NCBI RefSeq assembly: GCF_005938745.2
Contig: NZ_VCBX02000001.1
Coordinates: 5,718,501-5,782,500, forward strand
DNA: 64,000 nt
Source: Rhodococcus sp. KBS0724
GTDB lineage: Bacteria > Actinomycetota > Actinomycetes > Mycobacteriales > Mycobacteriaceae
Reading direction: 5' to 3'
A program made the translations under genes and the position numbers. Shown here in pieces: positions 34,567-39,783 of this stretch (position 1 is the first letter of the stretch; the number at the start of each line of letters is the position of its first letter). The notes under the pieces are model-generated. The model was not told the origin of the DNA. It saw only the letters and a list, made by a program, of their open reading frames with translations, and made no database searches.

Positions 34567-35769
34567 ATGACCATCGAACACATCACCGACGAAGAACGGT
34601 TGGCCGGACTCGATCTCGAGCAGCTACGCCAACTGGTCGGACTGATCGAATACGACGACGCTTCGGATCCCTTTCCGGTCCACGGATGGGACGGACTCGA
34701 GTGGATCGTCGGTAACGCCACCCAGACCTCCCACTTCTATCAATCCGCCTTCGGCATGACGTTGGTGGCGTACTCGGGTCCGTCCACCGGCAACCGCGAC
34801 CACCACGCGTTTGTACTCGAAAGCGGCGCAGTACGTTTCATCGTCAAGGGAGCTGTAGACCCGGCAAGCGAGTTGATCGAGCACCACCGCATCCATGGCG
34901 ACGGTATCCGCGACATCACCTTGAACGTCCCCGATGTCGACAAAGCCATAGCGCACGCCATCACGCAGGGCGCGCGGGTCGTCGCCGAACCGCACGACAT
35001 TGCCGACGATCACGGCAGCGTCCGCCTGGCGACCATCGCCACGTACGGCGACACGCGGCACACTCTGGTCGACAGGTCCGGATACCACGGACCGTACTTG
35101 CCCGGATATATCAGTCGCACATCGTCATTCGTCGCCCGCGATGGTGCCCCCGAGCGAATCTTCCAAGCTCTCGATCACGTGGTCGGGAATGTGGAACTCG
35201 GGAAAATGGACGAGTGGGTCGACTTCTACCGGCGCGTCATGGGGTTCACCAACATGGCGGAGTTTGTCGGTGGCGACATCGCGACCGACTACTCAGCGCT
35301 GATGAGCAAAGTGGTCTCCAGCGGCGATCACCGCGTCAAATTCCCGCTCAACGAACCCGCCATCGCGAAGAAGCGATCACAGATCGACGAGTACCTGGAG
35401 TTCTACCAAGGTCCAGGCGCCCAACATCTGGCGCTCGCCACTTCCGACATCCTGACCGCCGTCGACGCACTTGTTGCCGAAGGAATCGAGTTTCTGTCGA
35501 CACCGGCGTCGTACTACGAAGATCCGGAACTGCGCGCCCGGATCGGTAAGGTGCGGGTCCCCATCGAAGAGCTGCAGAAACGTGGCATCCTCGTCGATCG
35601 AGACGAGGACGGCTATCTCCTGCAGATCTTCACGAAGCCGATTGGCGATCGACCCACCGTGTTCTTCGAACTCATCGAACGCCACGGATCACTCGGTTTC
35701 GGCTTGGGCAATTTCAAGGCACTTTTCGAGGCGATCGAGCGCGAGCAGGCGCTGCGTGGAAACTTCTAG
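34567..35769 (+). CDS. hpd: 4-hydroxyphenylpyruvate dioxygenase, 400 aa
   Basis: Two vicinal-oxygen-chelate halves are visible. The C-terminal iron ligands are in [14 protein letters not shown] (His), [12 protein letters not shown] (His) and [25 protein letters not shown] (Glu), the last being the HPPD signature. It converts 4-hydroxyphenylpyruvate to homogentisate in tyrosine degradation. GGGAGG lies 8 bases before the ATG at 34567. Normal length. The stop overlaps the convergent Nudix-like gene by four bases. Confidence 0.95.
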
Positions 35770-36425
35770 GTATCTGCGCTCCACTGCCACACAACCGACG
35801 GGCGACCCGTTGCACTGACCCGCACACGCTCGTCGGTACGTTCCAGTCCGGGTAAGGATTTGAGCGTGCGGTTGAGATTGCCGGGGTCGGGGCGGGCGCC
35901 GGAGAGTTCCTCGGCGACGGCCAGCGCGTAGGACGCCGGGAACGACGCCCCGGTCAGAGCCCGAGTGAAAACCTGATCGCGCCACAAGAGAGAGTCCGCC
36001 AGGATGGGCCGAGTATCCGCGACTATCCGATTGTGATCGAAGGCAAGATCACCCGGGTTGTCCCAGCTCACCCATTCGGGAGTGATGTCACCGGTAGGCA
36101 CATCGCTGGGCGTGATGATCGCCCACATCGTCACCGACAGTGTCGGACCACGCGGGTCTCGGTGGGGTTCGTCGAACACCGCCAACTGTCCGCTCGCAAG
36201 AATCGCGTCGTCGGGGAGCCCGAGCTTGGTAGTTACTGCTCGCCGCGCCGCATCTTGGAGTCGTTCACCCGCGCCGAGCAGTACACCGGGCAACGCACGC
36301 TGCCCGGTGTACGGCTCTGCCTGCCGCTCGGCGACGGCAAATCGCAAGTGGCCCGGTTCCGGATTGCCGAAACGCAGAGCGATGACGTCGATCGAGACTA
36401 GTGACTGTTCCACGCCATCCATCAT
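35766..36425 (-). CDS. NrtR-like regulator: degenerate Nudix domain plus winged helix, 219 aa
   Basis: The N-terminal Nudix fold (about residues 10-140) keeps the LPG...[20 protein letters not shown] box outline. The catalytic R-E-U-x-E-E core reads R62-A63-V-T-T66-K67, so the three metal-binding glutamates are gone. The C-terminal 65 residues match the NrtR winged helix: [34 protein letters not shown] and [10 protein letters not shown]. NrtR proteins bind ADP-ribose and repress NAD genes. This one is the last gene of a four-gene operon; its start overlaps the PurA-like stop (ATGA). It probably represses its own operon through the 39761-39783 palindrome (inference). Confidence 0.82.
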
Positions 36426-37708
36426 GCAGGCACGCCGGCGCGAAGCCGACGATCGGCCCGGTCTGGTCCGTCCGAGGTAAGCACTACCGGAACCGCGATC
36501 TCGCTGCCGAGGTAATCGACGAATTGGTCGACTTCATCCGGAACTTCCCGCGGCACAGTCGACATGGTCCGCAGCGCTTCGGTCAACGCTGCCTGATGTT
36601 CGAGATCCTTCCACTTTCCGACGGGTATCGACGTGCACCAGTCGTACCTGTCCACACCCTGGATCGGAGTGCCCGCCGACGTTGCACGTTCCAGCGCGTC
36701 GAGGTGCGTGAGAGCCAAACCGTCGACGCCGCCACTGACCTCCACCGCGTATCGCAACAACATCGTGTCGAGGTGCCCGACCCGAAATGAGCCCTGGTAC
36801 TCGCCGACGCCGTTGTGCGGTTCCGGCAGGGCTGCCCCGAGCGCTCTGTCTTCGGTGGGAAACGGCCCGGCACCGTGACGCGTGGTGTACGTGCGGGTCA
36901 CGCCGAGCACATAACTCTCCCTGCTCATTTCGGCGATCATTGCGCGGGCATTGGACGGCTCCACCGTCGACCAAGTGGTATGCGGGTGAAATCCACGCCA
37001 CTCGTCGAGGAGGACACCTTGCGCACCTTCGAAGACCAGTCGACCACGGGCACCGATGGACTCCAACGCTCCAGGTGCGACAATATCCACTACCGCAGCG
37101 AATTCCGCGTACATGTCGACCATGTCCACTAGTGCGGGAAACCTGTGACGACCGCCGGAGATCAACCTCCCGTAGTACTCCGCCAGGTTCTCGAGTTTGC
37201 GCGCGAGCCCATCCGGTCGTCGGCAGTCACCGACGGTCGGCGCGTCAGGGCGGTCGAGCGCATACGCTGCCGTCTCACCGATTCCCTTGCCACACGAGCC
37301 GTGCCGGTTGCCACCTCGCGCATCCTCACGAGCCCGGTTGGCGGCCACGTGAATCGGCGTCGTCAACAGTGCCCGACCGTCGACGGTCAACAGGTCGAAT
37401 GGATCTTGTACGCCAACGGCTTCCAATGCTCGCGCTTCCCTCGCCAAGGAGATCGGTTCGACGAGCACGAACTTCGAGAGAAAGGTAGGAATGCCGTTGA
37501 GTGTTCCCGATCCGAATTGCGAAAAGGTGTGGTGACGTTCTCCGTTCACGACATTGTGAGCGGCTTGCGCCCCTCCGTTGAACCGAACGACTGCCGCCAC
37601 ATCGAGATCTGCCTGCGGTGAGCAGAGCCAGTCGACCGTGGCGCCCTTCCCGGCGTCACCGAAGCCCAGGTCGACAACAACGATGTCACGATCACCCAAA
37701 GCGTCCAT
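36422..37708 (-). CDS. divergent adenylosuccinate synthetase paralogue, 428 aa
   Basis: PurA superfamily fold. The GTP/IMP loop GFGDAGKG (residues 15-22) keeps the catalytic Asp18 and Lys21, and RFNGGAQAAHNV keeps His51. GSCGKGIGETAAYA, FEGAQGVLLDEWRG and HGAGPFPTE are also recognisable. The aspartate-binding loop, TTTGRPRRCGW in true PurA, reads VGEYQGSFRVGH here (about residues 301-312), so another amino-group donor or substrate is likely. The ATG at 37708 is preceded by GGAGG inside a tandem duplicated ribosome binding site. The context (vWA, pseudokinase, NrtR-like) does not suggest purine synthesis. Confidence 0.85.
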   Translation of the reverse strand: MDALGDRDIVVVDLGFGDAGKGATVDWLCSPQADLDVAAVVRFNGGAQAAHNVVNGERHHTFSQFGSGTLNGIPTFLSKFVLVEPISLAREARALEAVGVQDPFDLLTVDGRALLTTPIHVAANRAREDARGGNRHGSCGKGIGETAAYALDRPDAPTVGDCRRPDGLARKLENLAEYYGRLISGGRHRFPALVDMVDMYAEFAAVVDIVAPGALESIGARGRLVFEGAQGVLLDEWRGFHPHTTWSTVEPSNARAMIAEMSRESYVLGVTRTYTTRHGAGPFPTEDRALGAALPEPHNGVGEYQGSFRVGHLDTMLLRYAVEVSGGVDGLALTHLDALERATSAGTPIQGVDRYDWCTSIPVGKWKDLEHQAALTEALRTMSTVPREVPDEVDQFVDYLGSEIAVPVVLTSDGPDRADRRLRAGVPA

Positions 37709-39758: not shown

Positions 39759-39760
39759 GT

Positions 39761-39783
39761 GTTTTAGTCTAAGTGACTAAAAC
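39761..39783. promoter_or_regulatory. NrtR-type palindromic operator upstream of the four-gene operon
   Basis: GTTTTAGTC-TAAGT-GACTAAAAC is a perfect 9+5+9 inverted repeat ending 2 bp before the start codon of the J-domain/pseudokinase gene. TTTAGT/ACTAAA half-sites of this size are the type bound by NrtR regulators, and the operon encodes an NrtR-like protein. Binding is inference. Confidence 0.7.

Follow-up and report, generated by a model that had tools for sequence, protein, structure and literature searches.

Gene Organisation of the Cassette

We analysed a four-gene cassette of Rhodococcus sp. KBS0724 that pairs a von Willebrand factor A (vWA) protein with a relative of the adenylosuccinate synthetase PurA. 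It lies in a 64,000-nucleotide stretch of contig NZ_VCBX02000001.1, hereafter called the window, in which all positions are counted. Four tightly packed open reading frames (ORFs) occupy 35766-39758 on the minus strand, with a 23-bp palindrome, the predicted operator, directly 5′ of the first gene. In the order of transcription, the features are:

39761..39783, 2 nt before the first ATG: predicted operator, a perfect 23-bp inverted repeat, GTTTTAGTC-N5-GACTAAAAC
38739..39758, minus strand: fusion of a J-domain and a pseudokinase (phrog_3043 family), optional partner, assigned from the ORF, PHROG, AlphaFold2 and the alignment of the HPD and kinase motifs
37737..38723, minus strand: vWA protein with the metal ion-dependent adhesion site (MIDAS) residues D73/T75/S77 and a fixed N-terminal Met-Gly (phrog_2971 family), core gene
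36422..37708, minus strand: PurA-like enzyme with the adenylosuccinate synthetase fold and a replaced aspartate loop (phrog_1211 family), core gene
35766..36425, minus strand: NrtR-type regulator, a Nudix protein without the catalytic glutamates, with a C-terminal part alignable to the winged-helix protein AraR

The genes are separated by 15 nt and 28 nt and then overlap by 4 nt, which confirms the close packing behind a perfect palindrome described in a first-pass annotation of this DNA. At its 3′ end, the Nudix gene in turn shares 4 nt with a dioxygenase-type gene that converges on it. The vWA ORF is open from a GTG at 38732 (37737-38732) and has an alternative start at ATG 38723. The ATG is most likely the true start, since a Shine-Dalgarno-like GAAAGG is spaced for it and nearly all relatives start at the same Met-Gly.

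The Four Genes Are Co-Conserved in Bacteria

We compared 40 bacterial loci, of which 28 came from a scan of genome contigs, five were plasmid loci and seven came from further genomes. The PurA-like gene accompanies the vWA gene in 39 of the 40, and the remaining locus stops at a contig edge. A Nudix gene was found in 36; of the four loci without one, three stop at contig edges and one is a Variovorax plasmid. Two proteobacterial plasmids (L008 and L009) have only a weak Nudix match, which lies on the opposite strand. A J-domain/kinase gene adjoins the vWA gene in 25/40 loci. The 15 loci without it are all from Nocardia, including one (L032) for which only 0.7 kb of upstream sequence was examined. 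A search of eight genus-g3 genomes (G670 and seven in which no J-domain/kinase match lay within ~1.5 kb of the vWA gene) for a full-length J-domain/kinase gene at another site gave partial matches only (best E 9.8e-12).

The distribution of the cassette is patchy: counting its own genome, it was found in 13/28 genomes of the genus, 38/301 of the family and 2/396 of the phylum, the last two figures being lower bounds, with few candidates scored per genome. The vWA gene is also found on 21 plasmid records. An in-frame TGA that seemed to interrupt the vWA gene in five genomes (four of them of genus g245) was dismissed, as it lies beyond the full-length vWA frame in all five.

The first-pass annotation had proposed a single system, with the reservation that its genes should not be rarely found together in other genomes. 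They recur together in bacteria, and three of them also in phages (see below), and this comparison of neighbourhoods establishes the four genes as a single co-conserved system, in which the Nudix regulator and the operator belong to the bacterial version of the cassette.

The vWA and PurA-Like Genes Form an Almost Obligate Pair in Phages

Three of the four window proteins match PHROG families. Among GenBank phage records, which include duplicates, relatives of the vWA protein were found in 208 (190 of mycobacteria, 10 of Rhizobium, 6 of Vibrio and 2 others) and of the J-domain protein in 190. The count for the PurA-like protein, 227, takes in PurA relatives from other phages, which may lie outside this family; such relatives occur among the matches in a few Listeria, Staphylococcus, Acinetobacter and Salmonella phages. 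Mycobacterium phage Tonenili carries the three core genes side by side, in the same order as in the window. A scan of viral contigs gave 273 with a vWA relative, of which 80 were taken further, and further scans contributed 80 of at least 531 contigs from the PurA-like side and 80 of 153.

A PurA-like gene is present with 226 of the 235 distinct phage vWA sequences and is always on the same strand. The gap between the two genes is at most 50 nt in 105 loci, 51-500 nt in 81 and more than 500 nt in 38, with 2 outside these classes. Six of the nine vWA sequences without a PurA-like gene have less than 500 bases of sequence behind them. From the PurA-like side, on contigs partly shared with the vWA-side set, the vWA gene was found in 75/79 phage loci, and in the other four the PurA-like frame starts within 870 nt of a contig edge. 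The order is reversed, with the PurA-like gene before the vWA gene, in two loci (L175 and L180). Judged from the loci compared, vWA and PurA-like genes make up a near-obligate same-strand pair, nearly always in the order vWA then PurA-like.

The J-domain pseudokinase gene lies near 126 of the 235 phage vWA genes, and short upstream sequence accounts for only 5 of the 109 absences. In 11 loci, on contigs partly repeated, it follows the vWA gene. By this count, it is a frequent and dispensable third gene. At most 6 of the 83 phage loci had any gene cluster beyond this triad in common (gene models of 70 residues or more, blastp clustering at E 1e-6), so that an additional conserved phage partner gene was rejected, and no single-frame fusion of vWA with PurA or of vWA with the J-domain/kinase protein was found among the loci examined.

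A midpoint-rooted tree of concatenated vWA and PurA-like sequences (202 pairs, 184 labelled as phage and 18 from bacteria) places four bacterial clades inside the phage diversity, and parsimony gives four changes from a root state of phage. The actinobacterial clade of 14 is supported at 1.0 and the node above it at 0.98; one other parent node has only 0.64. The module is, therefore, likely to be phage-derived and to have been taken over by bacteria, a direction that is likely rather than proven because the sampling favours phages and most of the phage leaves are predicted contigs.

Two phage loci have further genes of interest. On a 416-kb viral contig (L077:6252-12617), a Nudix-like gene directly precedes the vWA gene, which is followed by the PurA-like and J-domain genes; this is the sole locus with all four genes among the 83. 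In Rhizobium phage RHph_TM39 (L004:1005-3269), HAD, phosphoribosyltransferase-like and nicotinamide mononucleotide adenylyltransferase/Nudix genes lie ~3-5 kb before the vWA-PurA pair, an upstream cluster that does not recur in many of the 83 phage loci.

The Aspartate Loop Is Replaced in the PurA-Like Enzyme

The homology of the window protein to PurA is strong (Pfam, E 4.9e-65), and the same genome encodes a second PurA with canonical aspartate-loop residues. We aligned 122 PurA-like sequences with E. coli PurA, whose numbering is used here, and with the host's own PurA. Asp13, Lys16, His41 and Gln224 are kept in all 122 PurA-like sequences, Asp333 in 121 and Thr239 in 119. Because the catalytic residues are kept, the enzyme may still activate a 6-oxopurine with guanosine triphosphate (GTP). 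By contrast, the aspartate loop is one residue shorter in 122/122 (the gap was placed at Arg303, although other placements are possible), Thr300 is replaced by an aromatic residue in 118, Thr301 by Gln in 119 and Arg305 by Phe or Leu in 106. The next arginine, aligned to position 306, is kept in 121, and of the loop arginines common to both canonical enzymes, one is left. In addition, Val273 is replaced by His in all 122 sequences, Asn38 by Gln in 119 and Thr129 by Cys or Val in 119. The alignment thus bears out the PurA relative with a replaced aspartate loop of the first-pass annotation, as a paralogue of the normal host PurA.

In E. coli PurA, Arg303 contacts both the 2′-oxygen of inosine monophosphate (IMP) and the aspartate (PMC8342488). 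With the aspartate loop replaced and Arg303 lost, the window protein is unlike both PurA and PurZ at the amine site and unlike PurA near the ribose. It resembles PurA in its fold over the whole length and in its retained catalytic residues, and differs from it in the shorter, replaced loop, in the changes of Asn38 to Gln and Val273 to His and in its score of 134 bits against an NCBIfam cut-off of 396. Like phage PurZ, it belongs to a phage-carried group of PurA paralogues with altered residues near the ribose; unlike PurZ, it scores 28.6 bits against a cut-off of 300, and it keeps Asp13 and replaces the aspartate loop. PurZ retains the tip of this loop, which the pair of PurZ proteins compared have in common (PMC8342488). 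Since the scores lie below the curated cut-offs and the loop is replaced, identity with PurZ or canonical PurA was rejected. In summary, this is a textbook enzyme family, yet the site for the textbook substrate is replaced in every one of the aligned copies.

Some cluster C phage records, L003 among them, label the PurA-like protein '2-aminooxy adenylosuccinate synthetase', a name for which we saw no evidence. This name was found nowhere in the open-access literature searched, and 'PurA-like adenylosuccinate synthetase' was found there in two genome announcements only.

The vWA Partner Has a Fixed N-Terminal Glycine

The window vWA protein has no match in Pfam, and the profile of its family gave no match to the PDB at E up to 1. 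It was assigned from the three MIDAS residues and from the order of strands and helices in an AlphaFold2 model, which is that of the Rossmann-like vWA fold, in agreement with the first reading of this gene. The model has a mean predicted local distance difference test (pLDDT) score of 91.1 and a predicted template modelling score of 0.89; the first ten residues average 80, and residues 1-7 are coil.

Gly2 is present in 277 of 279 distinct complete vWA sequences, 275 of which start at position 1 of the model, although the profile used here was built from a Gly2-filtered set; the start picker ignored residue 2. With a profile free of this filter, Gly2 is found in 145/148 sequences. One exception (L129) is an artefact of start choice, with a MGHGGYSS start upstream in frame. 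The best 120 of 6135 database homologues (8000 candidates scored) all start with Met-Gly, and the N-terminal motif is roughly M-G-[GYS]-[GS]-x-[WYF]-[SD]. All four glycine codons are used among the 277 sequences (116, 101, 50 and 10), which excludes a nucleotide-level cause of the Met-Gly start, and the N-termini of the two neighbour proteins are variable at the same loci. In 76 diverse vWA sequences, R54, D73, T75, D114, Q123, E128, E152 and D184 are invariant and S77 is nearly so; Gly2 is also invariant in this alignment, which excluded rows without it and is not independent in this respect. Near-invariance of this order at the N-terminus is usually a mark of catalytic or modified residues.

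Within the vWA protein, residue 4 coevolves with residues 61, 130 and 132 (z 12.7, 12.1 and 10.3), and these are among the top intramolecular pairs. The coupled residues (59, 128 and 130 in the numbering of the profile) lie near E128 in the sequence, and residues 4 and 130 change on the same tree branches (8 times versus 1.9 expected). No coupling above the column median was found for residues 3 and 6-8. Since residue 4 couples and co-changes with residues of the body near E128, the tail is probably docked on a conserved face of the vWA body rather than free. A docked tail speaks against a floppy substrate and not against an amine that is presented in a pocket.

The J-Domain Partner Is a Pseudokinase

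The AlphaFold2 model of the J-domain protein (pLDDT 95.5) has a helix at residues 28-45, the HPD motif at 46-48 and a second helix at 52-79. Among 50 family members, the His of HPD is kept in 49 and the Pro in 48. Pfam DnaJ matches 33 of the 50, the window protein being unmatched, and Pfam Pkinase matches 29, with the window protein below the cut-off (E 0.0054). The HRD aspartate is missing in 48/50 and the DFG aspartate in 32/50, and both are absent from the window protein; an active protein kinase was rejected for this reason. Four other residues, W198, H217, H232 and D273, are retained by 48-50 of the 50 family members. By alignment, the J-domain partner is a pseudokinase that has preserved a site peculiar to itself. 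The earlier description as a J-domain joined to a kinase fold without catalytic aspartates, therefore, still stands, the kinase fold being weak in the window protein.

An NrtR-Type Regulator and Its Predicted Operator

At up to 3 mismatches, the window contains a single match to the operator pattern, where shuffled sequence would give 0.01. A shorter form at up to 2 mismatches occurs at four places in the 7.25-Mb genome (one perfect, which is that of the window, and three with 2 mismatches), and its reversed control occurs at five. At up to 4 mismatches of 18, the operator was found in 45 of 47 distinct actinobacterial upstream regions, that of the window included, and is perfect in 16, whereas shuffles of these regions gave at best 5 mismatches and never fewer. 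It starts 24-33 nt before the first gene where the J-domain gene comes first and 39-52 nt before the vWA gene where no J-domain gene was found. It was not found in two of the 47 actinobacterial loci (L040 and L059), nor in three proteobacterial plasmids (L008-L010). No Shine-Dalgarno sequence lies between the operator and the first ATG (39758-39783), and the two are similarly close in relatives with the J-domain gene first. Given this 2-nt spacing and the lack of a Shine-Dalgarno sequence within it, the cassette transcript may be leaderless.

The Nudix consensus motif REUXEEXGU (PMC4666351) reads, by eye, RAVTTKLGL in the window regulator, so that the glutamates are replaced. Residues 12-203 align to AraR, including its C-terminal winged-helix part (phmmer, E 1.1e-6), and the similarity to NrtR and AraR proteins is weak (NCBIfam-type profiles, phmmer). 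The regulator looks like an NrtR-type protein with an inactive Nudix domain, as the first-pass annotation had read it. As for NrtR-type regulators, the predicted operator palindrome precedes the regulator's own operon, and it shares its 23-bp length and GTTTT/AAAAC ends with the M. smegmatis NrtR operator, GTTTTCGA-N7-TCGAAAAC (PMC6800001). The impaired Nudix motif is a trait of the Nudix-type repressors of the NrtR/AraR family; unlike these, the window regulator adjoins the present cassette and not nicotinamide adenine dinucleotide (NAD) or arabinose genes. Since the ligands reported for the family are diverse (ADP-ribose, NAD and L-arabinose; PMC4666351), ADP-ribose is not implied as the ligand here. 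The cassette ties a bacterial switch of the NrtR type to genes that are shared with phages.

Comparison with Described Systems

TerY-P type systems are triads of a vWA protein, a kinase and a phosphatase. The present cassette is similar in that its vWA protein adjoins a kinase-fold protein, and differs in that this kinase lacks the aspartates, none of the four genes matches PP2C and a PurA-like enzyme is present instead. The MoxR-vWA chaperone pairs of jumbo phages (PMC7824862) likewise set a phage vWA protein beside a chaperone-type partner, but there is no AAA+ ATPase among the four genes here; the partner has a J-domain, the constant partner is PurA-like and only the triad recurs in phage loci. 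PADLOC gave weak matches to the J-domain protein only (best E 7.7e-9, to the PD-T4-6 model), and we took the models concerned to be of the kinase-domain type. In a defence scan of ten neighbours, the sole match at E 1e-10 was to mad3, by the ABC transporter ATPase.

Searches of the open-access literature, to which most subscription papers and preprints do not belong, turned up no account of this gene set, and the view that it is undescribed has so far held. The terms 'adenylosuccinate' and 'PurA' do not occur in the available parts of a 2021 review of jumbo phages (PMC7824862) or of a survey from 2020 that deals with vWA proteins in conflict systems. Both a vWA protein and an adenylosuccinate synthase are annotated in Vi01-like phages (PMC10892097), but no Vi01-like phage is named in the organism tally of the 208 GenBank phage vWA records. 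As judged by sequence, the gene set fits no described system tested, and each of its parts is from a known superfamily. An enzyme and partner set that is found in 226 of the 235 distinct phage vWA loci and in many actinobacteria thus has no described function in the literature covered. The co-conserved unit of the first-pass annotation was retained, but that reading had overlooked the core shared with many large phages, the fixed N-terminal glycine of the vWA protein and the optional nature of the J-domain protein. Nothing was found in support of its stress or conflict role, its ADP-ribose trigger or a defence function, and three of the four proteins matched nothing in PADLOC.

Proposed Mechanism and Alternative Explanations

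Our favoured reading, to which we give a probability of about 40%, is that the PurA-like protein is a GTP-dependent purine-amine ligase that uses an amine other than aspartate and works with the vWA protein. The enzyme would still activate a purine nucleotide at its 6-oxo group at the expense of GTP and would then join the nucleotide to this other amine, the ribose and 5′ end being recognised differently from PurA. The vWA protein would be a dedicated partner that either presents the amine substrate or is itself the substrate, and its N-terminal glycine, once processed, would sit in a conserved pocket. The J-domain pseudokinase could bring in the host's DnaK so that the pair is assembled or reset. 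In bacteria, the NrtR-type protein would repress the operon through the operator until it is released by a ligand, probably a nucleotide or sugar derivative. The boldest form of this reading is that the amine of Gly2 replaces aspartate, so that the vWA protein would be capped covalently with a purine nucleotide through N6 ('purinylation'); we consider this a long shot, and to our knowledge such a modification of a protein has no precedent. On the favoured reading, the module either makes an uncharacterised purine derivative or modifies a protein in a new way.

Several observations weigh against these proposals. The positions of Thr129 and Arg143, which we take to be residues near the 5′-phosphate of IMP, are changed in the PurA-like set, and hence the nucleotide could differ or the protein could be inactive. 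In three phage loci, no PurA-like match was found in the 2.9-4.0 kb behind the vWA gene. A further exception to the Met-Gly start (L102, 6980-7010) is a real extension before the conserved GGGSWSDD, and the codons that precede it resemble those of a hydrophobic leader. Coevolution between the vWA and PurA-like proteins is weak (266 pairs, effective number 222), and the vWA tail columns are not prominent in it; PurA-like active-site columns show only a modest excess among the top couplings (11 of the top 50 versus 4.7 expected, 17 of 100 versus 9.3 and 26 of 200 versus 18.6). Finally, the tree behind the proposed phage origin is phage-heavy, most of its 'phage' leaves are predicted viral contigs and the search depths were unequal.

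The alternatives overlap with the favoured reading, and their likelihoods need not sum to one. One of them has nearly even odds: the N-terminal glycine may be purely structural, the amine or tail left after the methionine completing a pocket in a vWA protein that serves as a metal-dependent adaptor. The strong couplings of residue 4 within the vWA protein and its joint changes with residue 130 mean that the tail may well have such a role, to which the confidence of the AlphaFold2 model over the first ten residues is also favourable; residues 3 and 6-8, however, lack comparable couplings, and a structural glycine leaves the replaced amine site in every PurA-like copy unexplained. It is somewhat unlikely that the product of the enzyme is a free modified (deoxy)nucleotide built with a small amine, either for phage DNA or to poison other users of nucleotides, with the vWA protein and the J-domain pseudokinase as mere chaperone or regulatory subunits. 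Phage relatives of PurA do make modified purines, as PurZ yields the precursor of 2-aminoadenine, and the loss of the Arg303 contact to the 2′-oxygen would suit a deoxy or altered ribose (PMC8342488). On the other hand, no further gene cluster accompanies the cassette in more than 6/83 phage loci, the amine site is unlike that of PurZ, in which the loop tip is conserved in the two proteins compared (PMC8342488), and the fixed glycine of the partner would have no explanation.

We regard as unlikely a bacterial stress, defence or anti-superinfection system that is triggered by NAD breakdown through the NrtR-type regulator and has a counter-system in phages, although this would be compatible with the favoured reading. 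The patchy presence, the 21 plasmid records, the differing neighbours in most relatives, the related genes in phages and the type of regulator are all in keeping with it. However, the vWA, PurA-like and Nudix proteins have no match in the defence library and the J-domain protein has weak kinase-type matches only, the ten neighbours include no defence gene beyond the ABC ATPase match, and NrtR-family proteins also answer to NAD or L-arabinose (PMC4666351). That the genes are chance neighbours or in decay has no finding in its favour and almost no probability left: the cross-genome comparisons refute it, given the co-conservation across phages and several bacterial classes, the near-fixed gene order and the conserved operator.

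Neighbouring Genes and Other Features of the Locus

In the window, the cassette is flanked by two genes, one of the hydroxyphenylpyruvate dioxygenase type and one for an ABC transporter ATPase. Across the 40 related loci, some of which are short, the former was found in 6 and the latter in 1. As the flanking genes are rarely shared, the cassette occupies different sites in different genomes. On the Allorhizobium plasmid pAtS4e (L008:832-2793), it has a type VI secretion tip gene in its vicinity and precedes a run of AAA, DUF5682 and DUF4132 genes. Scans for sigma-70 promoters and terminators gave no clear excess over chance (0 versus 1.0 in shuffles and 3 versus 2.9 in shuffles, respectively). 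A 16-bp unit, ACTGAAGGAGGACACA, is present twice between the vWA and PurA-like genes (37726-37741 and 37709-37724, within the stretch 37709-37741), and the ribosome-binding site before the PurA-like gene is thereby duplicated. The closest named relative found was Rhodococcus globerulus, whose vWA protein is 95% identical to that of the window.

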